DNA of 64,000 nucleotides from Mya arenaria (lineage: Eukaryota > Mollusca > Bivalvia > Myida > Myidae): NCBI RefSeq assembly GCF_026914265.1, contig NC_069134.1, positions 11,513,758 to 11,577,757 of the forward strand, read 5' to 3'. The notes beneath the pieces are model-generated. The model searched no databases. It worked only from the letters and a program-made list of their open reading frames with translations, and had not been told where the DNA came from. A program made the position numbers and the translations under genes. This document shows, in pieces, positions 13,965-64,000 of this stretch; position 1 is the stretch's first letter, and each line of letters begins with the position of its first letter.

Positions 13965-15164
13965 TTATCCAACAATTCCATTTGTGAAGTGAGCTCTGAT
14001 AAGATAGCCTGAAAACATCGACTGCCCGGCGTTCTGGTACGCTCCTTCAAGCGCATGTGGATTCGTCGGGTTCGTATGTCTAATGGACATGGTCTCGCCC
14101 TTCGTCATCGAGACGACAGCGGTTGCGGATCCGATGGCCCAGGTGTGTTGACCGCCGGTGTTTCCGTCAATATAGATAGAGGTCAATGGGGTGTTGCCTT
14201 GATGGAAGGCATAGTGCGTGTTAGTATCGTCGAACCCGCTTAACAACGTCATGGAAAATTCGTAGAGGCCGTCCAATGGTGCAGTAAATATGCCGGTCGT
14301 GTGGTCGTATCCGCCGACGGAGTTGGTTGAGTCAATATTGGTGATCACGTGATCAAAGATGACAACTTGCTGGTTGCCAATATGCCCCGTGGTGTCCCTG
14401 ATGTAGGCGAAAAACGCGACCTCGGTCTCCTCCCAATCCTGACGCGTCACTCTGTTACGATCTTGAAAGAAATAATTTGCAAATTTCACGTTTTGTCAAA
14501 AAAATCTCTAAACAAATAAGTTAACTTATTGACGTTTTATTATCAAAACAAAGAAAAACATACATGATTTGTGCCAAGATAATTGATGACTACGTGGCCA
14601 CAAATTATCCAGTTAAAAGGGCGCTCAATTATCGTTTTTTAGTTTTTGAAAGTGCACAAATTATATACTTTTTTCTTTTGATGATTAAAGTGAAATGAGT
14701 GAAACATATTAGTGCATTAAAATAATTAAAAAAACAATCAACCTATTGTGCCACTTTAAAGCCATATAATAGTGTTGCCATGAGCTACTGGACTTGTCCC
14801 CGGAGTTTCTTTTTGTTAAAGGACAAAAATATTATATTTTTGCCAAACTTCTGTTAGTGTGATAACATTCTTAATTTATCTTGAATTATTCCCTAAAAAA
14901 TACTATACTATTAACTTATTCTTAATTTATCTTGAATTATTCCCTAAAAAATACTATACCATTAACTTCGTTTGTAAGTTCTACGATTTTCTGTTCCTGT
15001 TCGGTCAGCTTTTTTCTCATTTCGGCCATTTCTTTGTCATATCTCTCTTCCAGCTTCTTGGTGATTATTTCTTCCAATTCTGCAAGCAGTTCTCTGCTGG
15101 CGGGGTCACATTTAACACCGTAAAAACAGACCGATATGAAACAAACACAAATCAAACGCCACAT
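13965..15164 (-). CDS. Secreted C1q domain-containing protein, two exons
   Basis: Exon 1 is 15164-14960 and exon 2 is 14461-13965, joined G|AT in phase, for 234 codons including the stop. An upstream in-frame ATG at 15176 would add four residues. The start MWRLICVCFISVCFYGVKC is a signal peptide. It is followed by a heptad-rich coiled coil (LLAELEEIITKKLEER through KIVELTNEV). Residues from about 90 form a C1q jelly-roll domain, with marks VAFFAYI, GIFTAPLDGLYEFSM, GAYQNAGQSMFSGYL and a hydrophobic last strand. There is no collagen region, as is usual for bivalve C1qDC proteins. These are secreted lectin-like pattern-recognition or adhesive proteins that trimerise; the ligand cannot be read from sequence. 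It is paralogous to the two copies at 42667-47196 on the other strand. Confidence 0.92.
14869..14968. repeat. 50 bp tandem duplication at the exon 1 donor of the C1q gene
   Basis: Two nearly identical 50 bp units (14869-14918 and 14919-14968) cover the last codons of exon 1 and the start of the intron. The exon-proximal copy keeps the G|GTATAG donor. The intronic copy has T in place of C at the junction, so its donor is lost. Confidence 0.85.
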
Positions 15165-16222: not shown

Positions 16223-17125
16223 AATCGTAATGAAAGTGATTATTGAAAAAGTGAATTACGTCATAGAAGGTTTGGAAAAAACACAAGAATATCATCTCCA
16301 AAATTCATTTTTGCCTTTAGCGTAGCAGTTTCAATCACTTATACCTTTGCATTTCAGTGCGAACACTTCATCACCATAGTTGTACATCTCAGCAATGCCT
16401 ATCCACGTTTGCTATGACCTACATTGCACATTTCGAAGAATGAGTATGCAATGTAGGATTTGAATTGAAAACAGCTGTACGAAATTCGTTGCTGTTGCAT
16501 CAGAAGGCCACGTTTGCATGAATTTTAAGATAAGATTGGACGATAAATCGTACCGTATCTAAATAAAATTAATTTCTACTTTAAATGTTGTATGCCCGTA
16601 AATATAGTGACAAGGTGTTTCGGGCCACGGTTAAGAGGGAAATATATATATTTTAAGTATATTTACACGACACTTCGACCTCCTCAATTAGTGCCTAGTA
16701 CGTTATATTTAACAGTTCTTACTAAAACAACTATATTTTCTTATTTGGTAAATAGCTATATTTTCTTATTTGGTACACTTACAAGTTTGCTCTGAGGAGG
16801 CCGTTGAGCTGTGCTCCCCTTACCGTATCGACGGCCCAGTCGATTTGTCTAGCGCCTTACGAGCTCTTACGACCGGATTAACAATACGATACGATACGAT
16901 ACGATTCGATGCGAGGCGATGCGATACGATACGATACAATACAATGCGATGCGATGCGATACAATACAAAACAATGCGATGCGATACGATACGATACGAT
17001 ACAATACAATACAAGTTTTGTTCGTTGCGTACACTTGTTTCGACTTCTGTATTGTTCAGATTAAGAAGGAATGGTGCCAAATCAGTCAGAAAAGTTGCGA
17101 ACATTACCGGTGACAAATTTTCCCC
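16223..17125. repeat. Left copy of a ~0.9 kb direct repeat flanking the LINE
   Basis: This is essentially identical to 23493-24405, apart from two extra 5 bp units in the right copy. It ends at TTTTCCCC exactly where the LINE sequence begins. Its last ~110 bp (17013-17125) read on the minus strand as reverse transcriptase sequence belonging to the older element that continues beyond the right copy. A 112 bp subsegment (16783-16894) occurs a third time at 23382-23493. Confidence 0.92.
16883..17013. repeat. Pentanucleotide GATAC / GATGC / AATAC array
   Basis: Five-base tandem array of ACGAT, GCGAT and ACAAT variants. The homologous array at 24153-24293 is 10 bp longer. It gives spurious repetitive ORFs on both strands. 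It separates the RT-coding remnant from unrelated sequence. Confidence 0.9.
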
Positions 17126-17451
17126 GAACGAAGGCGCATGCGTGAAAAGGAAGAAGTTATGTTTTTGTGAGCTCGTGAAAATATGGATTTTAACAATGAT
17201 ATAGCTCATTAATACTTCTATAAAATGATATACATGTGTATAAATATCAGACCTATTATGTGATTAACGTTTATAAGACAAAATCATACTCATTTATGAG
17301 TTTTGATGGATTTTACGAAATTCCTTTGTGTTTTGGATATTTGGATTATTCTATTTTCATACGGATATACACGATTTATCTGATTTGTGACTAAAACTCA
17401 GATCACCAAGACCGTTATCGTGTAACAATGGATTAACGGATACAGCCAGCA

Positions 17452-19485
17452 ATGGCTAGCGGTTTTTCGCCCGTCATGAATAGCCCCGCGAACGCAAATT
17501 GCGATCAAGTGCATTATCACCAATTACAGCCCGCGGCCGGACTTTGTAGGGCATATGGTGATAATTCGACCATACTCAACCCAAATACATCGTTTAACGT
17601 ACAGAGATCACCTGAACAAACGTATCTTAAACAGTTTTACGTGGACCAAACCAACCCGCTTATGAGCACACCATATGGGCATAGTCAACCACAAGCAATA
17701 CTCTGTCAAAATGACAGCTTCCATGCGACACAAATTCCAGGTGCCCAACCATCTAGCATTCTAGATAGAGAACTCTTAAATCTGCCCAGGGATTACTATG
17801 TTGAAAAACTTATTAAACTCACGAATAGTTCTGAGTCAGATATATCATCGCACAGAGACGTTTTGCTCAGACGCGCGAAATATATTCCAACATGTCCAGC
17901 GGGGAAGCTAATAACCCGTCGAGGCTCGAGAAAGAACCCAGCACATGAGAAACTCGCTTCCGACTGCTATGTCATTAATGCCTTTCTACAGGGAGACCAT
18001 AGCGAAATAGAAACAGTTTTTACAAAAATAAAACTACAAGTCCCAACACAAGAAACGTCCAGGGACACTTTAGAAGAGGCGATGCCCAGCACTGAATTCA
18101 CAATGGAACTAAGTAAAGTGTTAGCATCGGTAATAGATCTAGGGAATAAATACACTTCCCTGCAGGATGAATTAAAGACTGATAGAGACACAATACGCAA
18201 ACTAAATTCAGATCTTCACACGGTGAAGAATGAAAATCAGGCATTAAAGCAGGAAATGAAAAGTCTGACGACAAAACTGTATAGTTCCTTAATTCAAAAT
18301 GAAGAAAGAATTAATACTATAAATGAAACAAACATTAACGTCATTAAAGCTTATGCTACGAAACTGGACTACACGATCGATGAGATAAAACAAAGCTGTG
18401 TACATCAAAAGAACGACATATCAACCATGTCTGTTGAATCACAAACACAATCCTACGCGGATGTAGTCCGACAGGGACATGCAACCACAAACACTGAAGC
18501 TCGTAACACAGAGACAGAGATAAATAAACCTGTGCACAAACATCAGATTCAGCAGCAGGAACAGACAAAGGCGCATCACCAGCCACCAAAGCATCAACCA
18601 CCGTATATTGCACAGAAACTCACCAAACCGAACGAAACGGGAAACAAAGATAACATTGAAACCACTGACACGTTATCTGCAAATGAACAATGCGATAGTG
18701 AAAGTAATATTGCGAGTGGTGATCTAACCAAGAGCGATGCAAGATCAAATGTTCCTGATGAAACGTCGGCCAAAAGGATCTATTACGACCATGAGAAGGC
18801 AAAATGGGTGCGACCGAACGTAACGCACAATTGTGTCCCGCAGGTTCCTGATAAACACCCAAATACTACAGTACAAACTAATAGCAGTATAAAACACGGG
18901 GATCAATCAATGAGGAATATTAATCATATCGAGACCATCATAACCTCTGCAAGACAGAATGATGCGAATCCAAACGTAAATGCGCAACCTAGCTACACGT
19001 TCAAGGGGAAATATCATGGGCGCACGCGTAAATATTTCGTTAGCAACATCGACCCAGATTCATCGGAGAGCGGACTAACGAAATATTTAACTGACAATTG
19101 TGTTACTCCTGTCGACACTTATGTGTTCAAGTGTAAATCAGGAGACTTGGCAGCGAAGATCGTAGTTCCCGCCTACCAAAGCTACTTAATTGAGGACTGT
19201 GACTTTTGGCCCAGCTTCATGAAGTGCCGCGCGTGGATGCCAAGACGACAGTGGAACAGTCATCGAAAAGACACAGACAACCATCATCAGCATCGTGGCT
19301 ACAACCATGGTAGTTAGAATCGTGACTCATACAACGCACACGGTGAATATAACAATCGTAATGCGAACGTGAACGCTTACCGTGGCCCAGACAATGACTT
19401 TTATCATTACGGACAAGGTCACACTGAGCAAGGCGATTTATACAACGGACATGCTCATCACCCAATATCCCATGACATTAACTAA
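17452..19485 (+). pseudogene. LINE ORF1 protein, interrupted by TAG at 19315
   Basis: The first 621 codons are open. The N-terminal part is Asn/Pro-rich. Residues about 219-313 form a coiled coil (from ELSKVLASVIDLGNKY to ATKLDYTIDEIKQ). A Thr/Gln/His-rich linker follows. From about residue 526 there is a compact domain (RKYFVSNIDP, VFKCKSGDLAAKIVVPAY, FWPSFMKCRAWMPRRQW) that resembles the RRM-like region of LINE ORF1 RNA-binding proteins (inference). After TAG 19315-19317 the same frame stays open to TAA 19483-19485. It keeps the same His/Asn/Gly-rich composition, so the true C-terminus probably lies there and overlapped the start of ORF2. Confidence 0.82.
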
Positions 19486-22400
19486 TTCATCTATACCAAA
19501 TGATAAGAACTTACGAATATGCACGTGGAATGTGAGAGGAATAATGTCCTCAGCGGCAAGTCTATCGAATCTGTTAGTTTCACAAAATATAGACATAGCT
19601 TTTATTACCGAACATAAACTGTTTAACCATTCAAAATACTTTGTTGATACAATACAACATGGATATAGAAACATTACCGTATGTGACGAAAATGTTAATC
19701 TATATAATAATATACGCTGTGGAAAGGGTGGTGTATGTATTATGTATAAATCAAATTTGGACTACAGTATTAAACATATTAACGAATCAATTAATGACAG
19801 AATATGCGGTATAGAGATAGACTGTGTATCCGTAAAGATATTTGCGTTTTGTGTATATATGCCTTCAGCAAATCATCCAAATGATATGTTTGAAAACTAT
19901 ATAAATTCCCTATATGCGATTTATAACACATACTCTGCTGATGGTATTGTTATGTTCTTTGGAGACATGAATTCCGAAATTACTATACAAAATAGTCATA
20001 ACAATGTACGAGGTTTATTATTCTCTAATTTCGTAATGTCAAATAATATGTTATCTTTAATGCATCTACCTTCATGTAAAGGTCCTAAATTTACGTATGT
20101 TACTATGGAATCTATGTTAGACCATATTATTATTTCAAATTGCGATAAAGAGTTGTTTCAGCATGTTGAAATATTAGATGATGATATGTTCTCTGTATCT
20201 GATCATTTACCTGTATTTGCAATTATTTCTGTACCATTTATGCGCACAACTGATGTTAATATAAAACGTCACATTGCATGGCATAAACTGAACCAAACGC
20301 ATATATCTGCCTACGAAGAACGCTTAACCGGACGTTTGCAAATTGAGGAAACGGAAGATGTTAACGTGATATATAATACAATCATTAAAGCAATAACATC
20401 AGCGTCACAACAATGTCTCCCACATACGAAATATAACCGTCATGCAAAGCCTTACTGGGCACAGGAAGTTAAAAGCGCGTATAATAAACAGCGTGAAGCA
20501 AGGCAATGTTGGATAGCGAAGGGACAGCCACGTGGATGGCATCACGAATCATATGCAACATATAAAAGATATAAACGAAGTTTTGTTACGATACAAAAAG
20601 CGGCGATTGAAAAAGTTGAAAGGACATTTAATAATCAACTTATAGAAGCAGCTGAATGCGATAACAAACTATTTTGGAGCTTAGTAAAATCTAGAAAACA
20701 TAAAAAATCAACTGTATGCAGTCAACTATCATACGAAAACGAAACAGCCAGGGACCCAGAAAGTATACTTGAAATTTTCACCAAGTATTTCAAAGACGTT
20801 TATACCCCCCTCAACTGTGACCATTTTGACAACAATTTCAAAGAAACTGTTGAAAAAGAAGTACACCGCTTAAAAGATATTAATGGTAGCGATGTGGTTA
20901 GTGCGCCAGAATTAGCCTCAATATCTAGCGAAGAAAAAAAATCGTATATTAAAACGCTTAATAAAGGAAAAGCCTCATCATATGATATAGTTTTTAACGA
21001 GCATCTGATCTTCGGCGGACAAGCATTGTGTGCAGCACTGGCATTTTTATTTAATCGAATAATTGTGTCAGGAATTATTCCTAAAATGTGTAAAAAGGGA
21101 CTTATCATACCAGCTTACAAAGATAACGGCAAACCAAGAAGTGACCCAAGAAATTACAGACCCATAACACTACTGCCAGTAATTTACAAACTTTTTGAAA
21201 AGATTTTGCACAGTAAAATAACTACGTGGATGAAAGACACTGGTGTTAAGTTTCCAAACCGTCAACAGAATGCTTATCAGAAGAACACAGGGGGCAATAA
21301 CTGCGTCTTTTAACCTACAAGAGTCAATATATCACAATCTAGAACTTAATAATAAAGTATATGTTGCGATGCTCGATACGAGAATGGCGTTCGATACAGT
21401 TTGGTTGGATGCAGTATTTTACAAGATTGCAGAACTGGGTATAACAGGCAAAACGTGGTCATTAATTGTTGACGCTCACACTGACATGTATAGTTGAATA
21501 TCGGCAAATGGCTTAACGTCTAACTTTTTCCCGGTAAAACAAGGGATAAGGCAAGGTGGGATACTCTCAACTTGGATCTACAACCTCTTCATAAACGGCC
21601 TCCTCGAATTGTTGGAGCGAAGTAACCAGGGGACAAATATCATCAACATAGCAACGAGCAATACTACTTTAGCAGACGACATCGCTTTAAGTGCAATATC
21701 GCCGTCAGGGCTCCAAAATCTACTAAATACTGCGTATGAATACACCTGCAAATTTAGATATATGATTAATTCAGCAAAAAGCTTCATTATGATATTTGGA
21801 GACCATTCAAGGAATAAGACGAGCAATAGTTTTTACCTAGGACATAATAAAATTGAGCACACGAACAAGTTAAGACATGTTGGTGTACAGCTAAATGACA
21901 AATTGACAGATAATGATAAAGTTACGGTCGCATGCAGAAAAGCTGAAGCATCATTTTATTCATTGTTGTCGCTGAACGTCGGAACCTGTTTAATTAACCC
22001 ACTTACGTCAGCAGAATTAATGTCAAAAATATGTGTATCAAAACTCCTTTTTGGGGCAGAACTGTGGAACAACTTATCGAAGACAAACTATCTGCAACTA
22101 GAACGCTTTATACGAATGGCTGCAAAACTAATACAGCGATTTCCTATACGAACTCGTACTGATATATGCTTGGCGATGCTCGGTATGAAGTCAATAGAAA
22201 GTCAAATAGATATTAAAAAACTAACGTTTCTTGAATGTCTTTGTAATATGCCAGTGCATGTACTCTCCAAGCAAATCTTCAACCTGCGGCTAGCCATGTA
22301 TGCATGTCGAACAAATAAAATCACTCAACGGGGATACATACCGGATATAATTAACATACTATCAAAGTACAATCTGCTTCCAGTTATTACAAGATATTCA

Positions 22401-22943
22401 TACACAGGACAATTTCCTACGAAATCAGCTTGGAAGATCACTTGTAAAAAAGCAGTGTATCAACACCATTTGAATTAATGGAAACAGAGATTACAAAACG
22501 ATGTTTCTTTTACAAGATTCAGATATTTGCATACAAGTATTGAACCAGCGATAATATGGACATGCGCATCAGACTTCCGGTCACGCCGACATGCACTGGA
22601 AGTGAGCAAACTCTGGATATCACCAAACCCGTATGATAATAGGGGACCGATATTATGCCATGCGTGTGGTGTTGTAGTTGACAATATTGTAAATCATGTT
22701 GTATTTTACTGCCATTTATCATCAGACATAAGAATACGATTCTATGATATTATTTCAAATGAGTTTATCAATGATGTATCCATGTGTTTGACTAATTGTG
22801 ATGATGAAACAAAGTTACAATATTTGTTAGGAAAAAGGCATCATGCATTTTCTAGCAAGAAGGTTCATAAACACGTTCTACGTATCGCAATAAGCTATGT
22901 TTTTAAATGTTTATGTGTAATAAAATTGCATTTTCAATTATAA
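19394..22943 (+). pseudogene. LINE ORF2: AP endonuclease and reverse transcriptase, three disablements
   Basis: The first in-frame ATG is 19394. The N-terminal exonuclease-endonuclease domain shows CTWNVRG, ITEHK, CVYMPSA, FFGDMNSE, LDHIII and SVSDHLPVF, so the catalytic Asn, Glu, Asp and SDH positions are present. The reverse transcriptase shows NKGKASSYDIVFNEHL, NYRPITLLPVIYKLFEKIL, MLDTRMAFDTVW, KQGIRQGGILSTWIYNLF and TLADDIAL; the catalytic box is LADD instead of YADD. The C-terminus has a CHAC...H...C zinc-binding-like motif near 22654-22710. It is disabled by a +1 G at 21290-21294, TGA 21495-21497 and TAA 22476-22478. Apart from these, the frame after the shift is continuous to 22943, about 1180 codons in all. 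Confidence 0.92.
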
Positions 22944-23493: not shown

Positions 23494-24405
23494 ATCGTAA
23501 TGAAAGTGATTATTGAAAAAGTGAATTACGTCATAGAAGGTTTGGAAAAAACACAAGAATATCATCTCCAAAATTCATTTTTGCCTTTAGCGTAGCAGTT
23601 TCAATCACTTATACCTTTGCATTTCAGTGCGAACACTTCATCACCATAGTTGTACATCTCAGCAATGCCTATCCACGTTTGCTATGACCTACATTGCACA
23701 TTTCGAAGAATGAGTATGCAATGTAGGATTTGAATTGAAAACAGCTGTACGAAATTCGTTGCTGTTGCATCAGAAGGCCACGTTTGCATGAATTTTAAGA
23801 TAAGATTGGACGATAAATCGTACCGTATCTAAATAAAATTAATTTCTACTTTAAATGTTGTATGCCCGTAAATATAGTGACAAGGTGTTTCGGGCCACGG
23901 TTAAGAGGGAAATATATATATTTTAAGTATATTTACACGACACTTCGACCTCCTCAATTAGTGCCTAGTACGTTATATTTAACAGTTCTTACTAAAACAA
24001 CTATATTTTCTTATTTGGTAAATAGCTATATTTTCTTATTTGGTACACTTACAAGTTTGCTCTGAGGAGGCCGTTGAGCTGTGCTCCCCTTACCGTATCG
24101 ACGGCCCAGTCGATTTGTCTAGCGCCTTACGAGCTCTTACGACCGGATTAACAATACGATACGATACGATACGATTCGATGCGAGGCGATGCGATACGAT
24201 ACGATACAATACAATGCGATGCGATGCGATACAATACAAAACAATGCGATGCGATACGATACGATACGATACGATACGATACAATACAATACAAGTTTTG
24301 TTCGTTGCGTACACTTGTTTCGACTTCTGTATTGTTCAGATTAAGAAGGAATGGTGCCAAATCAGTCAGAAAAGTTGCGAACATTACCGGTGACAAATTT
24401 TCCCC
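23493..24405. repeat. Right copy of the ~0.9 kb direct repeat
   Basis: Matches 16223-17125 almost base for base, with one 10 bp expansion in the pentanucleotide array (24153-24293). Unlike the left copy, it runs on into the older reverse-transcriptase remnant at 24406, which shows that this side is the original context. Confidence 0.92.
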
Positions 24406-24890
24406 TTGCCGTACTCCTTTTTACCCCCCCCCCCCCCCCCCCGAATCACAGGATTTGATATGTAATGTACTGTATATCATACGTATAAACTTGTCCGGTA
24501 TGCCATACTAGGATAGTTTTCTCCACAAAAACTCTTCAATATTGTCAAATGCAGAGGTAAAATCGACATGACAGCATTATGTTTTTCTTTCCATGCCGTA
24601 ATAGATCGATTAGTTTATACAAAACCAAAATGATCAGTCGTTGCGTATTTTGCCCTAAAACCAGTGTAGTTTTCTACTAGTATAGTGTTGTTTTTTTCGT
24701 CCATATATTTATTTAATCGATTATCTAACAATGACGTGAATAATTTTTCAAAGCAGCTTCAAGATGACTTAAAATTGTTGTTGGTCTATATTTTTACAAC
24801 CTTGCGGACTTCCTTTATTTGTATAAATCGACAGAATTATACCAACTGTCCAAACTTAGGGTATATATATCCGGCCTCCAAGATAAATTA
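24294..24890 (-). pseudogene. Remnant of a second LINE reverse transcriptase
   Basis: On the minus strand, near-continuous RT pieces can be read. From 24700 down to 24530 they include ENYTGFRAKYATTDH and DFTSAFDNIEEFLW. From 24415 down to 24300 they include GVRQGENLSPVMFATFLTDL and EVETSVRNEQN. These are typical RT motifs (finger/palm, motif A, motif B). Frames change several times and a C19 homopolymer (24424-24442) interrupts the middle. The part after RNEQN, where the ADD box should follow, is replaced by the pentanucleotide array. It differs from the plus-strand LINE and is older. Confidence 0.75.
24424..24442 (+). repeat. C19 homopolymer
   Basis: Nineteen consecutive C inside the RT remnant. 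Other G/C homopolymers occur at 27222-27239 (G18) and near 30346-30362 (C). Confidence 0.97.
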
Positions 24891-29484: not shown

Positions 29485-29951
29485 TTAAAGGGACTGTACA
29501 CCAGATTGGCACCAAAAAAAATAATTTTTCTGTAACGAATGTAAGGACAATTTTTTTTTATAAACTATTTTACTCTTTGATATTGTTATTGTAAATAAAA
29601 TACCAAAATGTAAAAAGAATTGCAGTGCAGTGTCGAATCCACTATGCTATGCAGACTTACTCTTACTGGGTGGAATTTCCAGATATATACCTAACTCGCT
29701 TATACCACGTAATAACATCAACGGCAGATTACGCATAAGGAATGAATTCTACTCGGTAGACATACCTAGTAATCTTTTTTAAATGGAAAAACACGAAATA
29801 ACTGCTATTAATAAATCATTTGTAAACTATGTGCATCAGTTAGTAAGTTTCAATCCACTAATTGTACAAATCGATACCAAGTTTATGTCAGGTTTCTATA
29901 TAAAAAAAAGTTTTTTCTTTTTCATTATTAACGGAGTACAGCCCCTTTTAA
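29485..29951 (-). mobile_element. TTAA-flanked MITE, copy 1 (degenerate tRNA-like module)
   Basis: Begins TTAA then AGGGACTGTAC and ends GTACAGCCCCTT then TTAA. It is the reverse-oriented relative of 41517-42020, sharing ATTCATTCCTTATGCGT and GTTATTACGTG on the opposite strand. The tRNA-like part is present only up to the anticodon region (about 29660-29620, minus strand); the T-arm is deleted. Confidence 0.78.
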
Positions 29952-33168: not shown

Positions 33169-34269
33169 ATGGCTGCAGCCATGCTCGTAAGTAAAGCTCA
33201 ACTCTCATTGTTACGATCATGCTCCGATATTTCACATTACATCATGGAGGTGAAGCATGTCTGTAAGAGATGGTAACAGTCCCGATTTCACACGCAAAAG
33301 GTTGTTACCAGTCCAGGGAAGTTGCCTCCCAAACTCCTCATTTTGAGAAAAGGGCTTATCAGTCCATGAAATCACCATGAAATTGAACCAGCCAATTAAT
33401 CACCACTTAGCGTGCCACCCTGCTGGGCTGTTTACTGTGTGTATCCAACAGATGTTCCTTGACCATTATTGCAGTATGTGAACTAAATATTCTGGAATTG
33501 AGTGTGTCTTGTGTTTAGGTTAAAAATGAATATCTACCAATACAGAAAAGGTATGTTGTCTTTTAATACTTTAATGCCCATTTCACATTTATGACATATA
33601 TTGTTGAATAATGTGTTTACATAAAAAACAACACATGTTTGCGTTAAAAGTATTTTTAATTTACTGTTGTTGTGTTTCCCTTTGTTAAAAAGTAGAGCAC
33701 AATTAAAATAACAAGAGATGGTTTAAATGTTATTCGCAATAAGGACAATTCTTTACTAAGATTTACATATACAATATCAATATGAATATCAGTATGAATT
33801 GCCTTTGTCTTTAGCATTCGAAAAGAAAAGGCAATTATATCATCAAAATCTTTGAAACCTATTTATTTCAGGTACAATTTTGCATCGAAATGGAAGAATT
33901 TAAAACCCTAGGTTTGAAAGAACTTTCCATTGTAACTGATGATACTGGAATAGATTATGTTGCTTTCCAACAACTCATAGATTTTTTGAGAAGAAAAAAA
34001 CTTCCCAACGAGACACATTTTGTAAAGGGCAATGTTTTTCGGTGGCTGAAAGGGAAGGAACACATTGTGAAAGAAGTTAATGAAAAACCGGTGTTTAAAG
34101 CTCAAAATGTTGTGCATTTCTTCTTTGCCCATTCAACACAGTCTGAAGTATGTAGAAAATTGTCAAAGGAACTCTACAGTCAACGCATCACAAGCGTCAC
34201 AGTTCAATGTGGAGTGACATCTGTGTTTCAGATATATAAGCAAGTGGCATCTGAAAACGTTATTGATAG

Positions 34270-35169
34270 TGTAACGTGCCGGCTGTATGTTCAATCGGTG
34301 TCGTAGAGCCAATATGGATAGCTCTTATATAAATTTTCCTCAGGCTACTTTGCCTTATGATTAAAACAAATGATTCGAAAAATGATTGGTGAGTTAAAAC
34401 ATAATCAACCAAATAATCAGGGTTCAAAGATTATGCATTGGTTTATATAAAGTTCAGTCACTTTAATGATGAATGGCTTTCTCTTACGGGAGTTTGTTTA
34501 TTGGCGATGCAAAATACCTTAACCTTTGTCAGCGCGCAGATCGCAATGCTTTGTGGCCAACGCAGTTGTCAGGTATGAGGCTTATTAGAGTTTCTACCCA
34601 CCAGCTCCGTTCACCAGACTAGATCGCAATGCTCTATGTATCTGGCTACTTGAACTGGAACGCTAGATAACCCTATAGATGTCAAGTTCCTGGTGCCTTT
34701 TTATCCCACAGATCGCAATGCCCTGTGTTCAATTATAAACAGCCAGAAGGTCAAGACTCTAATGATTTGCCTTCAAAAGACTATTTCCGGTTTACTGTTT
34801 GAAGTTACCTCGACGGCGGTCAAACACAGAATGAAACTTTCAGCTGAGCGACGCACTTATATACTCACCGGGCGGACGAGTTCATTATTAAGATGGGTAA
34901 AATGGGTATATTCCACTTTGCGAAAACATGAAGGGAGACAGCTTTATTTTTACTTATACTCTTTATGAAAACAACTCCCGGTTAATTAATAATGTTTAAC
35001 ATGATTTCTTTAATTATTATAGTCGCTAATAAAATATTTGTATGGAATAAATAAGTCTAAAATGTAAAACTAACCTTTGAAATACACCGCCAGACATTTA
35101 ACTTTGTAAGCGCAAATGGCTAATTTATAACAAAGGGCGGTAATCGTGCAACTATGCGGTTACGCTACA
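34270..35169 (-). repeat. 3' LTR (left copy)
   Basis: About 900 bp, from TGTAACGTGCC (plus strand) to GGTTACGCTACA. It differs from the right LTR by roughly nine substitutions and one small indel near 35147. The ORF at 34693-34968 lies inside it and is not meaningful. A purine-rich stretch next to it (minus strand GGAGGCGTGGG, 35173-35183) may be the polypurine tract. Confidence 0.95.
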
Positions 35170-35304
35170 TTACCCACGCCTCCGAGTCCATGCGTCCCTG
35201 CATGATTAATAAAAAAATGATCAAACAATGAACTTTTTAATAAAACAAGTTTGTAACCACAAACAACATGACACAATATGCAATTTTAAAAATGTCAATA
35301 AAGT

Positions 35305-37326
35305 TCAACAATTTCTCCTCTTAAAAAAATGTTTCGTAAATGTTAGTGCCACGAATTCACAGTTTGTTTTGTGTATTTCAAGCATTTCAAACTGGTTCCA
35401 TAGCGACTTAACATGGTAACTAGCAGAACCTATGTTTTTAAACCAAGGTTTCTTTCCATCCTGGACCCATTTTCGCACTTCTGTCAAATCACTGTCTTTG
35501 CACTGCTCTGCATGTAAGTCATCAGCGGTCGTCTTTCTTTCCAAAGTTGAAAGTATCTGTACCGGTACAACTGTTTTATCGTGGTCCCAAATACCACACT
35601 GACGACACGGTATACGACTCAATCCATCAGCATTACCATGTTGTCTGCCTGGTCTATGTTCGATGTCCATCTGAAATGGTGCCAAGATTTCCAACCAGCG
35701 AGCTACCTGTCATTCAGGATTTTTAAAATTCATAAGCCATCTGAGAGACCCATGATCTGTCCGTATCAAGAACTTACGTCCATACAAGTAGTGTCGGTAG
35801 ACCGTCACAAAATGAACAAGAGCCAACAGTTCTTTTCTCGTGACACAATACTGTCTTTCTGACTTTGAAAGAGTTTTGCTTCCATAAGCAATTACATGTT
35901 CAACTCCGTTAACTTTCTGAGACAGCACACCACCAATTGCACAATCGCTTGCATCTGTATCGAGAATGAACGGCAATTCAAAATTAGGATGGGCAAAGAT
36001 CGGAGCCGACACTAACATCCGTTTTAGTGCTGTGAATGCGCTTTCACAATCAGGCGTCCAAAAGTATTTAACATTCTTTTCCGTGAGCCTAAACAGTGGT
36101 TTTGCAATCTGAGAAAAGTTCTTAATGAAACGACGGTAGTAGCTACATAAACCAAGAAAAGACCGAACCTCTGTTTGATTTTTCGGTGTTGGCCGATTCT
36201 TGACACTGTCTATTTTCTTCGGATCTGTTTGAACGCCGTGCTCTGATATGACATGCCCCAAGAATTCAACTTCCTCTCTGAAGAGCTGACACTTCCTTGG
36301 TTTTAGCTTCAGTCCAGCTTCCTCAAATCTTTGAAAAATTTTGTCCAGATTTTCGATCATGCCATCCACAGTCCGTCCTACCACAATGATATCATCTAGA
36401 TAGATGAGGCATATTTGCCATTGCAGCCCTGTCAATACCGACTCATTGTATTCGAATAGGCCTCTGCGCGTGCTAAATGCGGTTTTCTCTTTGTCCTCAC
36501 TTGCCATCTCGACCTGCCAGTACCCAGAAATAAGGTCAAGACATGAAAACCATTTAGCTCCAGCAAGCTGGTCCAGCGATTCATCCACTCTTGGTAATGG
36601 GTATGCATCTTTAATGGTTACGTCATTTAAACGACGATAATCAATGCAGAACCGCTTTGTCCCATCTTTCTTTTTCACAAGAACTATTCCACTGGACCAA
36701 GGGCTCGTAGAGGGTTGTATGACGTTATTTTCCAGCATAGTGTCTATTTGTCGATCAACCTCATCTCTCATGTGTATTGGGACACGCCTTAAAGGTTGCT
36801 TGATAGGCCGTGCGTCTCCTGTGGGTATACGATATTTTATTATACCCGTCCGGCCTAAATCATTATCATCCTTTGAGAAAATATGTGAACATTTCTTCAA
36901 AAGGTCCATAATCTTCAACTTGTTTCCATCGGTCATACCTTCAGATGCCCTAGCGTACATATCTTCCATATGTTCAGGTAAGGTATCACCATATTTAAGT
37001 TTTGTCGACTTTTCTTCTACCCTGTCCACTTTACTGATAATAGCCACGTTCGTTCCGGGATAGTAAGTCTGTGTCTCTTTTGAAAAGTTTGCTAGTCTGA
37101 CAGGTACGACTTCTTGTGCATACACAAACGACCTGGCGACAAATCCATTCCCAAGTACTTGAAACCGCTCACTTGGCTCAAATAATCCCAGCCCTATTCT
37201 CTGTATGCCTGGCTCCATTACAGTTCCAGTTGTAATAATCTCTGTACCAGGAAGTACTTCAATTTTTTCTGCCAAAACTATCCTAAAACAACCTATTTTC
37301 CCAGTACAATTTAGCTCAAATCGCAT
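35305..37326 (-). pseudogene. Pol remnant: reverse transcriptase and RNase H
   Basis: The frame is continuous on the minus strand except TGA at 35710-35712. RT shows RRVPIHMRDEVDRQIDTML, PWSSGIVLVKKKDGTKRFC, IDYRRLNDVTIKDAYPLPR, DLISGYWQVEM and the catalytic box IYLDDIIV. At about 36444 the frame passes directly from RRGLFEYN to ESVLTGLQW, so the conserved FGLxNAPxxFxxLM palm segment is missing by an in-frame deletion. RNase H follows (DTDASDCAIGGVLSQK, SERQYCVTRKELLALV, IRTDHGSLRWL), then the linker HRPGRQHGNADGLSR. No integrase zinc finger or DDE core is present. The element could not encode active enzyme. Confidence 0.95.
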
Positions 37327-37565
37327 GCCTTTCAGTACTTAGCACTTTCTATTTACGTCGATCGTGACTTCATGTGACTGCATAAAATCTATGCCCAATA
37401 TTACATCTAAATCTATTTCAGCAACTAGAGCCCTCACTGTACATTTGATATTTCCTAACTCAAGAATAATGTCAGTACAGCCCTAAATAGACATATTGTT
37501 TCCTGAAGCCGAAATTATGGGGTCTAAAAATTCAGCTTATTAGTGTCTTGTATGCTTTTCCATAG

Positions 37566-37700
37566 TTAACTTGATATTAAGGTGAGTGTTGCCCCTGTAT
37601 CAACTAAACATTCAATGGTACAGCCTTCAAGTTTTGCTGTTGCAAACATGCCTGACAATTTATTACTTGAATTGTAAACCTTACGCTCACCGCGCTTTGC
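37566..37700 (-). pseudogene. Retroviral-type aspartic protease fragment
   Basis: On the minus strand, ECLVDTGATLTLIS is the protease active-site motif. It is in frame with Gag and ends in a TAA at 37566-37568. RT lies in another frame, so at least one shift separates them. Confidence 0.85.
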
Positions 37701-37757
37701 ATTGGGTTGAGCAGCTTTCAATTGGGGACAATTCCTTCTCAAATGGTCCTTCGACCC

Positions 37758-38864
37758 TCATTCAAAACATCTTCTTTCATTGTTCCTGTTAGGACCCCGG
37801 TTTTGGTACTGGTTGTTTCCTCTATAGCCGTTATTCGTCTGAGGCTGTGGTGGTGATTGCCTTTCTTTTGATAACTTATCAATAGTGCATTGCATTTCCT
37901 GCATTTTCTTCATTAGTTCCTTTACATCGGAAGGTTTTTGTGAACTTTCGTTTGCGGCTAGGCTAACAACACCCTGGCCCTTCCTTTCAGCCCTGTAGAA
38001 AGCCTCAAGCTCTACAGCATGACGTACTGCTTCATTCAAATTCACAGGCCTAGCCTGTTTAATCTTCAATCGCATATCCGAATTCACCAGAGCATCCACA
38101 AACTGCTCTTTTGCCAATGTCTCGCGCACATCTACATGTGCGCTTGGATATGCAAGGTTGGTCAGGCGACGAATATCTTGCCCTAACTCAGTAATCGACT
38201 CCGTAGCTCTCTGTCGCCTGTCCTTCAGCTGAACTCTATATAGTTCAGTCTGGTTCGGAGGAGCGAACCTCTCCTCAAGGGCTTGAACTTAATCCGTGTA
38301 ATTAGTTGTTTTCGTGGCCAAATTGCCATAAACACCTTGTGCCTGTCCTCGCAATGACACTGACAAATAAAGACCCTTTTGGGTATCATCCCAGTCATTT
38401 AACATAGCACAAGCTTCAAAATGTGCCTTATAATCAGTCCAGGCACCATTTCCATCAAACGTAGCCGGCTTCATTACGGTACGTTTGTCACTTCCTGCTG
38501 AGCCTCCAGCCCTTAATGGCTTACTTGTCTGGCCCTGACAAGTCTCAATTGCTTGTGGTTTCAGACCACCACAAACATGACCGATCCCAGCTTCGTCGGT
38601 CCCAGGCTCACTTTTTAACCGTCGCCTCTCCGTGACAAAATCGGTCCTAGCAGGTGTTTGTATGCCTACATCACATCGCGTGTGGACCCCTGGCTTGGGC
38701 GTGGAAGTCACAAGTCTGCTACTGGATAAATCCAAGTCCCGTTGTGCCATCGCTATTTCTTTCTCTAGTTGTAGAATGTGCACCTCCCGCTTTAAATGTT
38801 CGATTTCTCTGGCCATCATCTCTCGTTCTTCATATATGTCTGGCTGTGATGAAGTTCGATCCAT
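37758..38864 (-). pseudogene. Gag remnant with a zinc knuckle broken by a stop
   Basis: The ATG at 38862-38864 follows the primer-binding site. There is an N-terminal coiled coil (EREMMAREIEHLKREVHILQ), then a Gag core (VMKPATFDGNGAWTDYKAHF). TAA at 38289-38291 interrupts, and the same frame continues (LEERFAPPNQTELYRV, ETLAKEQFVDALVNSDMRL). Near the end the CCHC knuckle reads CFE-stop-GSKDHLRRNC: TGA at 37758-37760 sits where the second Cys should be. Both breaks are single codons. Confidence 0.92.
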
Positions 38865-38874
38865 ATTTAATGTT

Positions 38875-38892
38875 GTCCCTCGTTGGGCGCCA
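38875..38892 (-). other. Primer-binding site
   Basis: On the minus strand, TGGCGCCCAACGAGGGAC lies five bases inside the 5' LTR. It resembles lysine-tRNA type primer-binding sites, which fixes the element's orientation. Confidence 0.8.
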
Positions 38893-38897
38893 AATTT

Positions 38898-39800
38898 TGT
38901 AACGTGCCGGCTGTATGTTCAATCGGTGTCGTAGAGCCAATATGGATCGCTCTTATATAAATTTTCCTCAGGCTACTTTGCCTTATGATTAAAACAAATG
39001 ATTCGAAAAATGATTGGTGAGTTAAAACATAATCAACCAAATAATCAGGGTTCAAAGATTATGCATTGGTTTATATAAAGTTCAGTCACTTTAATGATGA
39101 ATGGCTTTCTCTTACGGGAGCTTGTTTATTGGCGATGCAAAATACCTTAACCTTTGTTAGCGCGCAGATCGCAATGCTCTGTGGCCAACGCAGTTGTCAG
39201 GTATGAGGCTTATTAGAGTTTCTAGCCACCAGCTCCGTTCACCAGACTAGATCTCAATGCTCTATGTATCTGGCTACTTGAACTGGAACGCTAGATAACC
39301 CTATAGATGTCAAGTTCCTGGTGCCTTTTTATCCCACAGATCGCAATGCCCTGTGTTCAATTATAAACAGCCAGAAGGTCAAGACTCTAATTATTTGCCT
39401 TCAAAAGACTATTTCCGGTTTACTGTTTGAAGTTACCTCGACGGCGGTCAAACACAGAATGAAACTTTCAGCTGAGCGACGCACTTATATACTCACCGGG
39501 CGGACGAGTTCATTATTAAGATGGGTAAAATGGGTATATTCCACTTTGCGAAAACATGAAGGGAGACAGCTTTATTTTTACTTATACTCTTTATGAAAAC
39601 AACTCCCGGTAAATTAATAATGTTTAACATGATTTCTTTAATTATTATAGTCGCTTATAAAATATTTGTATGGAATAAATAAGTCTAAAATGTAAAACTA
39701 ACCTTTGAAATACACCGCCAGACATTTAACTTTGTAAGCGCAAATGGCTAATTTATAACAAAGGGCGGTAACAACTGTGCAACTATGCGGTTACGCTACA
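38898..39800 (-). repeat. 5' LTR (right copy)
   Basis: 903 bp with TG...CA ends, matching 34270-35169. ATAG follows immediately at 39801. Confidence 0.95.
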
Positions 39801-40398
39801 ATAGGAATGACATGAAAACATTAGAAATTAATGAAAATGATTTGGAAACGCTTAACACACATTATAAGGGACAGTTTAGTGAAGAAAATTGGGCAAAAGT
39901 GTGTTTCTTTGAAAATCATTTCATGCGTGTAAATGATATAGATGTGGGAACAAAAGCGTATGAAAGCTTAATTGCTAAGAAAGCATTATATTCTGAAAAC
40001 TTGAAACAAACCCAAACTGTTGCTCGCGAGCTTCTTAAGCAGTCAAAAATTGAAATTACAAAAAGACTGAAACGCAAAGAGGTAGCAGGTTTCGATGATC
40101 AGATTTGTGTGGTGGGCAGAAATCGACACAGTCCACTTTTCATAGAACTAGACATGGTCGACTCATTCTTTGATAAATCTGTCATTAAGCATGTACTTTG
40201 TGTTGATTGTTCAAGGTACTGCCATCACGCATCAAGTTTACAAGTATGTGTTGAAATATCAGACAATTCTCATTGTTTTAATGATGTTAACATAGCCTTG
40301 AGTTCGTTCCTCGAGAAAAAAATACATGGAGAAAACTGTGTTCATTTTTTACCTATTTCATTGATTATATGTGTATGAAATGTTTAAAACGAAATAAA

Positions 40399-41516
40399 TT
40401 GTGTTCTGTTCTGTTTCTGTTCTGTTTTTGGCTAAGGATGGGATATACATGTATATGACAGTATAATAACACAATTAAAGAATCTGTAGCTATGAGTGTT
40501 CAAAAGCTTTTGTTAATGTTTATATTCTTTGTAACCCAATGCAAACAATGATATGTTTATGTTATAGATACACAAAACTTTGTTAGTTATTATGATTATT
40601 TTATAAATCTCACAAAAAGAATTTTATTCTCAACTTTGTTTATAAAACTATTTTAAAATATAATGGAATTAATTATTCAACTTGAATTTTAAAGAGTATA
40701 CAAAATCAGATGAAATGCTCTGAACAGTAAAGACAAGAATAAATGCAAGTACAGCCAGATTCTGTTGCTAAATATCTGTTCTCAGAAACATGTGTTTGGA
40801 ATTTGATATGGAGAAGCAGTATTTATGACTTTGCGGCTTTCCTTAGATCATTATCAGTGAGGTGTTAATAAACACTGAACCCTGGATAGCCTTTATCAAA
40901 TTGGGCAGTTTTTGGGGCAAATACTTGGGACTGTGGAATGATGTTTGATTTCAAACTCAGTTATGTAAGAGTATGTAATAATTTGCGTATATTAACAGTA
41001 AAACACACGTATAAAACACGGATATGAAAGGGAAAACTCCTATAATCTGGAAAACTCCTTCAAGTTCTGGTTTTGATCTCATTGAAACTATATTGCATAA
41101 TAATTTTATAAAAAAAATACAAAAGAGGAGGGAATTCAGATGTACCGTAAATATTTAATTCAGTGCGGTTTTCTCCCTTCTGTCTGCACTGCTCTTGTAG
41201 CTAAATGAACGAAATATACCCAGTAGCTTTGTATGAAAGATGGAAGAACATATATCCTTTACCATTATCCATTACTATATACTTCATATTTTGCAAACGT
41301 TTATTAGCGTTTATACTTCACTTCCAACTTCTTGGTAAGCTGGGTCATTTACCTCTGATTTGCTATGTATTTGTGTGTAAGTTAAAACATATCCACCCAT
41401 CGCATGTAAGTCATATGCTTATGAACATTCTAATGATTCTTATTTCCATATAGTGGTGTTATGAAAAATTGGTTTAAATATGTACATTTGTAAATAATTT
41501 GTTAAACTCTTTTTGT
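40399..41516. other. Intergenic, no gene seen
   Basis: AT-rich. The ORF at 41205-41453 is hydrophobic but lacks any recognisable feature. Confidence 0.5.
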
Positions 41517-42020
41517 TTAAAGGGACTGTACTCTGTATGATAAAACAGCGAAAATAAAAGAAAAAAAAAATGTCGAAAACTGAAATAAACATGGTATCGA
41601 TGTGTACAATACATTGGAACTTACTAACTGAAGTACCACAGTTTACAATTAATTTATTTTTTCGCAGCTTTATCGTATTTTTCCATTAGAAAATATTACT
41701 AGGTACGTCTACCTAGTAGAATTCATTCCTTATGCGTGATTGGCTAGTCGATGTTATTACGTGATATGACCATGTTAGGTATATAGCTTAAATATTCCAA
41801 CTGTTTAAAGTTAGCCTTCGTAGCACAGTGGATACAGCACCGGACTGCAATTTTGGCAACACCGGTTCGAACCCGGTCTCCGTCTCGATTTTTTTTACAT
41901 TTTGGTATGATTTTTACAATTATGATATCAAAGTGTAAAACATTTTATTAAATAATTGTCCTGAGATTCGTTACAGAAAAAAACTTTTTTTGGTGCCAAT
42001 CTAGTGAACAGTCCCTTTAA
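41517..42020 (+). mobile_element. TTAA-flanked MITE, copy 2, with tRNA-Cys-like module
   Basis: Ends AGGGACTGTAC and AACAGTCCCT, with TTAA on each side (41517-41520 and 42017-42020), as for piggyBac or Kolobok type elements. No transposase is present. It is in opposite orientation to 29485-29951. The interior holds a tRNA-like segment (separate entry). Confidence 0.82.
41814..41888 (+). ncRNA. tRNA-Cys(GCA)-like sequence inside the MITE
   Basis: A-box-like TAGCACAGTGG (41821-41831), anticodon loop CTGCAAT with GCA at 41847-41849, and B box GGTTCGAACCC (41864-41874) within a perfect 5 bp T-stem. The acceptor arms (GCCTTCG and CTCCGTC) do not pair, so it is not a working tRNA. It could act as an internal RNA polymerase III promoter. 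Confidence 0.7.
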
Positions 42021-42389: not shown

Positions 42390-43690
42390 TTCAATTAATC
42401 AAGGATCAACTTTGAAAGGGAAACGTCGCTTTAGTCCCTCGATCCTTGGCTCTTGTCAGTTATGAACATGGACATTAGTTGCATCAAAATGTACCATCAC
42501 AGCAGGATACTCTAAAAGAACCGGAGGCCAAATTCAGCCAACGTATACTTTTGGATCTTTCGTTATTGGTCAAACGCAAAACAAATTGAGGGGAAGATAA
42601 AGAATGATTTATAGTCCTGTTCTTATCTTTCTATCGTAGTCCGACATTCACGCAACAGGCACTAACATGTCTGCAGTACAGAGGTGTTCCATCGCCGTTC
42701 ATTTAATGTCATTTTGCTTTCTATCAGTAAAAAGTAAATCACCAAACAACGAGGATGACCTTGCTCATCAGTTCGCGGAGTTAAAAGAAACAGTTACCAA
42801 TATTGAAGGAAAGTATGAAAAAGCAATGTCCATTATGACGAAGCAGGATAAGGAAATGATGTTATTAAAGGACGAAGTAAACTTGTATAAAGGTAGGAAT
42901 CTTCTATAATTCAAAATTTAGATTTAGTAAGATAGTTTCTGGAGGGAGCCTTCGGACGCATATATTACATTACTGATAGTATAGTCTCTATCGGAATGAG
43001 AATGTGCATTGACAGCAATGATTAGTACAACTGTGTCAACGTTCAATTGCATTTACGTAAAAAAATCAGCCATATTCAATACAATAAATAACTAACTAAA
43101 TTAAATAAACGTATAATAATATAACGTATCCCTGCTTAGTAAACCTAGTCTAAGATTTATAGATTATACTTTTGTCCCTTAAAGGCTTATACAGGGATAG
43201 GCGTCAGGAAGTTGACAGTGCAGAGGTTGCGTTTTATGCCTACATAAGTCATAACGCGGTCAATATAAGCAACCAACAGGTGGTCGTCTTTGATTGAGTG
43301 GGTCACCAATATCGACACGACACACTCCGTCGGCGCCGGATACAATCCCGGAACTGGTATATTCACTGCACCTCTTGACGGCCTATACGTGTTTTCCATG
43401 ACATTGTCAAGCGGGTACAACGACATAATAATTATGAACGCATTTCGCTTTCCACCAGGACAACACCCCTCTGACCTCAATCTTCATTCACAGAAGCACA
43501 GGCGGCTTGCACACCTGGGACATCGGATCCGCGGATGCTGTCGTCTCGAGAGCATGTCCATTCGACATACGCATCCGGAGGCACACGCGCTTGAAGGTGC
43601 GTACAAAGGGGCCGGACAGTCGATGTTTTCCGGGTTTCTTCCCCGAGAGCACCTCGGCAGAGAAAGTATTGTCGGTTAAAATGGACAAAT
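42390..43690 (+). repeat. Segmental duplication, copy 1 (C1q locus)
   Basis: This block matches about 45850-47215: the leader ATCAACTTTGAAAGGGAAACG, TTGGATCTTTCGTTATTGGT, both exons and the 3' end. The offset is about 3.5 kb. Intron sequence is more diverged than the exons. Confidence 0.85.
42667..43679 (+). pseudogene. C1q domain-containing protein pseudogene
   Basis: Exon 1 (42667-42892) is intact, with signal peptide MSAVQRCSIAVHLMSFCFLS, a coiled coil and donor G|GTAGG. Exon 2 (43185-43679) keeps the acceptor and C1q landmarks but is broken several times relative to the intact neighbour. There is an in-frame TGA at 43295-43297 plus a one-base insertion beside it, a frameshift near 43445-43455, and loss of a small segment near 43545 where the neighbour has MTVGQTMS. 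C1q pieces therefore lie in three frames (TGIFTAPLDGLYVFSM, HTWDIGSADAVVS, GAYKGAGQSMFSGF). No functional domain can be made. The intact parent or sister is at 46173-47196. Confidence 0.85.
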
Positions 43691-46172: not shown

Positions 46173-47196
46173 ATGTCTGCAGTACAGAGGTGTTTTATCG
46201 CGGTCTATTTAATGTCATTTTGCTTTCCTGCAATAAAAAGTAAATCACAAAGCAACAAGGATGATCTTGCTCATCAGTTCGCGGAGTTAAAAGAAACATT
46301 TACCAATCTTGAGGGAAAGTATGACAAAGCAATGTCCATTATGACGGATAAGCTTCTTGAGCAAGAGGAGAAAGTCGCTGCATTCAAAGATGAATTACAA
46401 TTGTATAAAGGTAGGACACTACAAACATAATTAAGTATTAAGTTCGATGCATTCTGGTAGTAGTTTCGTTAAGACGTAAAAAGTACATATGCACTATGAA
46501 TATATAGCAGACTTGGTTCGACTGAGACTTTTCATTGGTATTCTACATCGAATATTCACAGTCATGTGCAATGTTCATGAACGACCAAACTACAATTAAC
46601 AGCATTTTATTGAACACGAGTATAATATCAAAACGTAAAACGTAAAAAGGCTAACTTCATAATACGCATAAGTTTTTTTTCTTTTCTTTTAAGGCCTACA
46701 CGTTGATAGGCGTCAGGAAGTTGAAAGTGCAGAGGTTGCGTTTTTTGCCTACATAACCAATGACGCGAACAATATAGGCAGCAACCAAGTGGTCGTCTTT
46801 GATCACGTGATCACCAATATCGACACGACAAATACCGTCGGTGCCGGATACAATCGCGTTACCGGTACATTCACCGCACCTGTTGACGGCATGTACGTAT
46901 TCTCCATGACCCTGTTAAGCCAATACAACGACTACAGCACGCACTATGCCTTCTACCAAGACAACACACCTCTCACCTCGATCTACATTCACGGACACAC
47001 CGGCAGCTCGCACACCTGGGACATCGGATCCGCGGACGCTATCGTTTCGATGACGGTTGGCCAGACCATGTCCATTCGACATACTCACCAGACTGAATCG
47101 CACGCGCTGGAAGGTGCGTACCAGCGCGCCGGGCAGTCGATGTTTTCAGGTTTTCTTCTCAGAGAGCATTTCGGCAAAGGAAATATTGTTGGTTAA
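46173..47196 (+). CDS. Secreted C1q domain-containing protein, two exons (intact)
   Basis: Exon 1 is 46173-46410 and exon 2 is 46694-47196, joined G|GC in phase, for 247 codons including the stop. Signal peptide MSAVQRCFIAVYLMSFCF, then a coiled coil (DLAHQFAELKETFTNLEGKY, LLEQEEKVAAFKDELQLYK). The C1q domain covers about residues 95-246 (VAFFAYITNDANNIG, VTGTFTAPVDGMYVFSMTLL, HTWDIGSADAIVSM, GAYQRAGQSMFSGFL). Poly-A signal AATAAA at 47214-47219. It is paralogous to 13965-15164 and to the adjacent pseudogene. Same expected role: extracellular pattern recognition or binding, inferred from family. Confidence 0.93.
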
Positions 47197-62600: not shown

Positions 62601-64000
62601 ACTGCAACTATGACATACCTGTTTGAGGTAAAGTAGGCTACTGCAACTACGACATACCTGTTTGTGGTAAGGCAGGCTACTGCAACTACGACATACCTGT
62701 TTGTGGAAAGGCAGGCTACTGCAAATACAAAATACCCGTTTAAGGTAATGCAGGCTACTGCAAATACAACATACCTGTTTGTGGTAAGGCAGGCTACTGC
62801 AACTACGACATACCTGTTTGAGCTAAGGCATGCTACTGCAACTATGACATACCTGTTTGTGGTAAGGCATGCTACTGCAACTATGACATACCTGTTTGAG
62901 GTAAAGTAGGCAACTGCAACTACAACATACCTGTTTGTGGTAAGGCAGGCTACTGCAATTATGACATACCAGTTTGTGGTAAGGCAGGCCTCTGCAACTA
63001 TGACATAACTGTTTGAGCTAAGGCAGGCTACTGCAACTACGACATACCTGTTTGTGGTAAGGCAGGCTACTGCAACTATGACATACCTGTTTGTGGTAAG
63101 GCAGGCTACTGCAACTATGACATACCTGTTTGAGCTAAGACATGCTACTGCAACTATGACATACCTGTTTGAGCTAAGGCATGCTACTGCAACTATGACA
63201 TACCTGTTTGTGGTAAGGCATTCTACTGCAACTATGACATACCTGTTTGTGGTAAGGCATGCAACTGCAACTATGACATACCTGTTTGAGCTAAGACATG
63301 CTACTGCAACTATGACATACCTGTTTGAGCTAAGGCATGCTACTGCAACTATGACATACCTGTTTGTGGTAAGGCAGGCTACTGCAACTATGACATACCT
63401 GTTTGAGCTAAGGCATGCTACTGCAAATACGACATACCTGTTTGTGGTAATGCAGGCTTCTGCAAATACAAAATACCCGTTTTAGGTAATGCAGGCTTCT
63501 GCAAATACAACATACCTGTTTGTGGTAAGGCAGGCTACTGCAACTACGACATACCTGTTTGAGCTAAGGCATGCTACTGCAACTATGACATACCTGTTTG
63601 TGGTAAGGCATGCTACTGCAACTTTGACATACCTGTTTGAGGTAAGGCATGCTACTGCAACTACGACATACCTGTTTGAGGTAAAGTAGGCAACTGCAAC
63701 TACAACATACCTGTTTGTGGTAAGGCAGGCTACTGCAACAATGACATACCTGTTTGTGGTAAGGCAGGCTACTGCAACTATGACATACCTGTTTGTGGTA
63801 AGGCAGGCTACTGCAACTATGACATACCTGTTTGGTTTGTGGTAAGGCAGGCTACTGCAACTATGACATACCTGTTTGTGGTAAAGAAGGCTACTGCAAC
63901 TATGACATACCTGTTTGTGGTAAGGCAGGCTATTGCAACTATGACATAACTGTTTGAGCTAAGGCAGGCTACTGCAACTATGACATACCTGTTTGAGGTA
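59665..64000. repeat. 39 bp minisatellite, about 111 units, running off the window
   Basis: The unit is close to GGCAGGCTACTGCAACTATG then ACATACCTGTTTGTGGTAA, 39 bp. Variant classes: TGTTTGTGGTA, TGTTTGAGGTA, the TAACTGTTTGAGCTA class, and a diverged class with AATACAAAATACCC(A/G)TTTTAGG (for example near 60385, 60505, 61830, 62730, 63470). Because 39 is divisible by three, most frames stay open, producing 13-residue repeat ORFs on both strands; none is a gene. A 5 bp insertion near 63835 breaks register once. It probably sits in an intron of HPS6, whose upstream exons are not in the window. Confidence 0.95.

Follow-up and report, generated by a model that had tools for sequence, protein, structure and literature searches.

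We examined a 64,000-nucleotide stretch of the Mya arenaria genome (contig NC_069134.1, positions 11,513,758 to 11,577,757 of the forward strand; hereafter the window), in which a long terminal repeat (LTR) retrotransposon separates the two halves of an open reading frame (ORF). A first-pass annotation had proposed that these halves represent a single undescribed host gene. Our analysis indicates instead that the locus is very probably a set of nested mobile elements, with a defective LTR retrotransposon lying inside an internally deleted copy of a DNA transposon, and that the host gene is not real. The split reading frame sits within a larger repeat (33309-40933) that is dispersed in the genome, has inverted-repeat ends and has relatives that run beyond the stop of the ORF. 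The outer element and the insertion site comprise the following features, where L numbers designate other copies in the genome.

33309-40933, forward strand: copy of a DNA transposon that carries an internal deletion and is interrupted by the LTR element, with borders common to L031-L035 and L037
33309-33354, no strand assigned: left terminal inverted repeat, 46 bp compared
33890-34269, forward strand: 5' portion of the transposon's reading frame, comprising 126 codons plus two bases
34266-34269, no strand assigned: left copy of the target duplication ATAG
39801-39804, no strand assigned: right copy of the target duplication ATAG
39805-40378, forward strand: 3' portion of the transposon's reading frame including its stop, the last ~14 codons coming from the element's 3' end
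40321-40339, no strand assigned: internal-deletion junction relative to L031 (L031 2392 to 3186, ~0.8 kb)
40393-40398, forward strand: AATAAA, in a stretch common to the 3' ends of other copies
40888-40933, no strand assigned: right terminal inverted repeat, 46 bp compared

Joining position 34269 to 39805 gives one open frame, as had been described, with 954 nt and a single terminal stop (317 residues plus the stop, or 318 codons). A frame of this length is not explained by chance, because the longest stop-free run in the three frames of a 3 Mb order-1 Markov sequence with the dinucleotide frequencies of the window was only 205 codons. The strong start and polyadenylation signal reported for this frame are also present, with G at -3 and +4 of the start ATG and an AATAAA beginning 15 nt after the stop. 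The tetranucleotide ATAG does lie on both sides of the LTR pair, and the site is empty in all five close genomic copies (L031-L035), which read gtttttgATAGgaatgac with a single ATAG. With these empty paralogous sites, the duplication of 4 bp and the arrangement before insertion are proved, and no second individual is required. A more distant copy, L036, likewise carries no LTR insert, and the letters at its site differ. Of the intact allele or paralogue suggested in the first-pass annotation, insert-free paralogues were found (5/5); the frame is broken in all five.

The genome searched comprises 1.216 Gb in 18 contigs, and the match counts obtained from it are lower bounds. The left half of the ORF was found in at least nine places: the window, five others at full length and 94-95% identity, and three more matches, with identities of 79%, 94% (over 217 bases) and 87% (a piece of 62 bases). 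The right half, searched as protein, gave at least 22 matches, some of which are pieces of one copy. The five other close copies lie on five contigs with 93-96% DNA identity, and six-frame listings of each contain only a broken version of the reading frame. In the codons compared with the window frame, L031-L035 carry 1, 0, 2, 1 and 1 stops and 4, 7, 5, 6 and 6 gap runs, respectively.

When the copies were aligned to the window with the LTR insert masked, they were observed to share the same borders. The left border falls at window 33305-33315 in L031-L035 and at 33309 in L037, and the right border at 40933 or 40934 in L032-L035 and L037; the right end of L031 is rearranged and is followed by an inverted piece of L031. 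The window copy, which measures ~2,090 bp once the insert and one ATAG are removed, has the termini CAGTCC...GGACTG. These form imperfect inverted repeats, the left end and the reverse complement of the right end being identical at 31 of 46 positions. Comparable values were obtained for L032 (33/46), L033 (34/47), L034 (32/46) and L037 (30/52), all of which start with CAGTCC. Exact 4-bp target duplications flank four of the six copies examined with both ends (L032 TAAT, L033 AAAT, L034 TACA, L037 GATT). Taken together, the shared borders, inverted repeats and 4-bp duplications establish the outer repeat as a DNA transposon family of the cut-and-paste (terminal inverted repeat) type, as it has dispersed copies with the same ends, terminal inverted repeats and a target duplication of fixed length.

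The end of the ORF is itself a product of rearrangement within this family. The window junction at 40321/40339 corresponds to L031 2392/3186, so that ~0.8 kb has been lost from the window copy, and the last ~14 codons together with the AATAAA derive from the element's 3' end. A different internal deletion, common to L033, L034 and L035, starts from window 40239 and continues into the part with MGGNDFLPKFHGISH. More distant relatives contain long further ORFs (amino-acid identity to the right half is 37% in L038, L039 and L040 and 30% in L041). Because relatives extend past the window stop and ~0.8 kb has been deleted, the window ORF represents the N-terminal portion of a longer protein encoded by the transposon. 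The Cys/His cluster highlighted in the first-pass annotation fared unevenly among these relatives. Close copies retain the CHH, and in an alignment by eye LCVDCSRYCHHA of the window stands opposite VFSDCTQSCTHG in L038 and ISADCTKRCEDL in L041, in which the DC and third cysteine persist, the first cysteine is absent and TH or ED occupies the position of HH. On this alignment, C..C...CHH does not appear to be conserved as a set of zinc ligands in L038 and L041.

Two further observations concern the distant relatives. L038 and L039 (G000 C10:71.75 and 71.69 Mb) are located in a duplication whose two copies are 97% alike and which, by eye, also contains HSP70-like ORFs. The distant relatives have a common left border (L038 ~3802, L040 ~3773, L043 ~6010 on the reverse strand) that resembles, by eye, the end of the window family (CAGTTACTCCAAAATTTGCTCA...GCTTATCAG).

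The inner element consists of a pair of LTRs enclosing a broken coding region, and its features are as follows.

34270-39800, reverse strand: defective LTR retrotransposon, 5,531 bp, of Ty3/gypsy type, with LTRs, a primer-binding-like site, and reverse transcriptase and RNase H by Pfam
34270-35169, reverse strand: 3' LTR, 900 nt
35305-35694, reverse strand: next pol ORF, no Pfam match, ~135 nt left up to the 3' LTR
35710-37326, reverse strand: pol ORF in which Pfam recognises reverse transcriptase, in two stretches, and RNase H
37758-38864, reverse strand: two ORFs (38289-38864 and 37758-38129) without Pfam match, assigned to gag from position alone
38898-39800, reverse strand: 5' LTR, 903 nt

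Both LTRs have the termini TGTAACGTGC...TTACGCTACA, of the TG...CA type. They differ at 11 of 900 aligned sites, by 5 transitions and 6 transversions, with 3 gap columns and a Kimura two-parameter distance of 0.0123, in agreement with the ~1% divergence estimated earlier. Assuming substitution rates in animals of 2-5 x 10^-9 per site and year, which are not specific to this species, the divergence would correspond to ~1-3 million years. Internal to the 5' LTR, at a distance of 5 nt, is TGGCGCCC, which we take to resemble a primer-binding site. The TG...CA LTRs, this putative primer-binding site, the reverse transcriptase and RNase H, and the 4-bp target duplication are all features in which the insert resembles Ty3/gypsy elements. 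It departs from them in that no integrase was matched in the four retrotransposon ORFs scanned (~135 nt remain between the last ORF and the LTR), the reverse transcriptase is matched in two stretches, the gag-position ORFs have no Pfam match, and the coding part is broken into several ORFs. From its reverse transcriptase and RNase H, we assign the insert to the Ty3/gypsy type as a defective copy, at a level above that of clade.

In searches with the two halves of the ORF, each query included some residues from the LTR where the frame is interrupted; the search of genome_contigs was the exception. Neither half of the ORF gave a match above the curated cut-off in domain libraries, the best being Pfam DUF2972 at E 0.0025, under its gathering score. 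Among public proteins, the earlier proposal to search with both halves was productive for the right half alone, which has one relative of 120 amino acids (79% identity over 117 residues); the left half has none at E <= 1 among 10 candidates. There was no match to the right half in PDB by sequence, no relative of either half in viral_contigs, and no relative of the right half, the only half used, in genome_contigs. An AlphaFold model of the right half alone reached a predicted local distance difference test (pLDDT) score of 32 and was discarded.

These results bear on how the locus is to be understood. The idea that an LTR element recently disabled a host gene whose function is unknown would account for the open 317-residue frame, its start context and AATAAA, and the public homologue of the right half; it is nevertheless scarcely credible, as the sequence is neither single-copy nor a non-mobile locus but occurs in dispersed copies with common transposon-type borders, and the end of the ORF was created by the internal deletion. 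Substitutions found only in the window copy, counted in the 260 codons readable in at least four other copies, are also near the neutral expectation, with 14 nonsynonymous changes in 571 sites and 6 synonymous changes in 147 sites (ratio of proportions, pN/pS, 0.60), plus one 3-nt insertion. These changes are compatible with no selection, and a total of 20 leaves room for weak constraint. In a second alternative, the host would have exapted the transposon copy as a gene before the LTR insertion broke it. Consistent with exaptation, the window copy is the sole open frame among the close copies, the window-only pN/pS is below 1, and the ratio of nonsynonymous to synonymous rates (dN/dS) relative to the window is below 1 in L033 (0.61), L034 (0.54) and L035 (0.35). 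We nonetheless regard exaptation as very unlikely, because the 20 window-only substitutions are indistinguishable from neutrality, dN/dS is 1.01 in L031 and 0.84 in L032, and pairwise constraint can stem from the active period of the family.

Several observations weigh against the nested-element explanation itself. The flanks of the window copy (TTAC vs TGGA) show no target duplication, and none is visible in L035, whose left end is altered. A known transposase domain was not recognised in the relatives scanned, which have no Pfam or NCBIfam match above cut-off, and no member of the close family was found to be complete and autonomous. The finding that only the window frame is open among close copies would fit a used gene too. 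Under the nested-element explanation, the outer element is a copy of a cut-and-paste DNA transposon in which internal sequence has been lost and no more than the N-terminal portion of the protein is left. A defective Ty3/gypsy-type LTR retrotransposon entered this copy in the opposite orientation, whereby ATAG was duplicated and the remaining frame was split; this insertion may have come before or after the arrival of the transposon copy at its present locus. Movement would have been by cut-and-paste with enzymes from fuller copies, and the window copy was presumably already dead or non-autonomous before it was split.

The superfamily of the outer transposon is a separate question, outside the confidence we place in the nesting. 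The scanned parts of the outer-family protein have no Pfam match above cut-off and no NCBIfam or solved-structure match by sequence. With the C-terminal part of L033 as query, three proteins (P0002-P0004) were recovered at E 1.3e-30 to 1.5e-20 (180 candidates). The motifs DIDSE, KGEAEM..IDW and TS(A/G)DID.V are common to P0002, P0003 and L041, and GNDFLP to P0002, P0003, P0004 and L033; we take this acidic motif series to resemble the acidic residues of XPG/FEN1 nucleases. Among described transposons of the Academ superfamily, AcademX is reported to produce duplications of 3 or 4 bp and AcademH of 9 or 10 bp, a difference tied to the encoded nuclease and helicase (PMC10045372). The 4-bp duplications of the window family agree with the AcademX length as given there. 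Other reports describe Academ as expanded in bivalves (PMC10294476) and list Academ-1 among hard clam repeats (PMC8905726).

On this basis, we put the chance that the outer family belongs to Academ, lineage AcademX, at about even, and offer the assignment as a lead rather than as membership. The likeness consists of the 4-bp duplications, the terminal inverted repeats and, in relatives, a long protein whose acidic motifs form a nuclease-like series; the difference is that an XPG nuclease domain was unconfirmed in all tests and that the window copy keeps an N-terminal fragment only. XPG_I had no match in the relatives scanned, and a genome scan with PF00867, in which only the best candidates were scored, returned 21 places, none at the loci of this family. 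Sequence comparison of the relatives with PDB gave nothing convincing, and when profiles were compared with FEN1 fragments the score was at chance level, being equalled or exceeded in 42 of 60 column shuffles. An AlphaFold model of P0003 made with P0002 and P0004 was unusable (pLDDT 36); Foldseek with that model against PDB gave 65 matches at E <= 10 and none at E <= 0.001, and XPG, FEN1, EXO1 and GEN1 were not among the best 50 of the 65. The negative XPG_I, PF00867 and FEN1 results and the unusable folding are what would be expected if the same nesting involved an outer transposon from another or undescribed superfamily, which we consider a serious possibility a little short of even. The 4-bp duplications and the motif order DIDSE, KGEAEM, TS(A/G)DID, GNDFLP argue against this by fitting AcademX, as does the reported bivalve expansion of Academ (PMC10294476). 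It is improbable, in our estimate, that the family is an animal DNA transposon lineage outside all described superfamilies, characterised by 4-bp duplications and by a long protein of several parts with an unrecognised nuclease-like domain at its end. A possible connection with DUF6589 was dropped; there was no Pfam match and no literature was found linking both terms. Separately, nine long open frames (251-899 amino acids) with sub-cut-off XPG_I scores were seen at G000 C11:8.33-9.71 Mb and C8:20.5 and 22.5 Mb, none at family loci.

The window contains additional repeats and ORFs. A LINE-like element on the forward strand (17452-22943) has a 621-amino-acid ORF followed by an Exo_endo_phos ORF (E 1.6e-10) and broken downstream frames. 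Three ORFs are mutually similar (13965-14489, reverse; 43290-43679, forward; 46789-47196, forward), and we take them to resemble C1q domains. The segments 16770-17209 and 24022-24508 are related through the same low-complexity YDTIRYDTIQ-type reading and common flanks, and 60518-63485 has long repetitive ORFs on both strands resembling a coding-like tandem repeat. Just right of the transposon, a repeat at 41516-42020 is 82% identical to L036 734-1218, and part of it recurs inverted at window 29485-29896 (74%).

This analysis removes a false candidate gene from the window and provides a clear case of nested insertion, in which the target duplication is proved by empty paralogous sites, no other individual being needed. 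The results further draw attention to a transposon family of bivalves whose protein escapes standard domain libraries, and ORFs of such transposons are readily mis-annotated as unknown genes.

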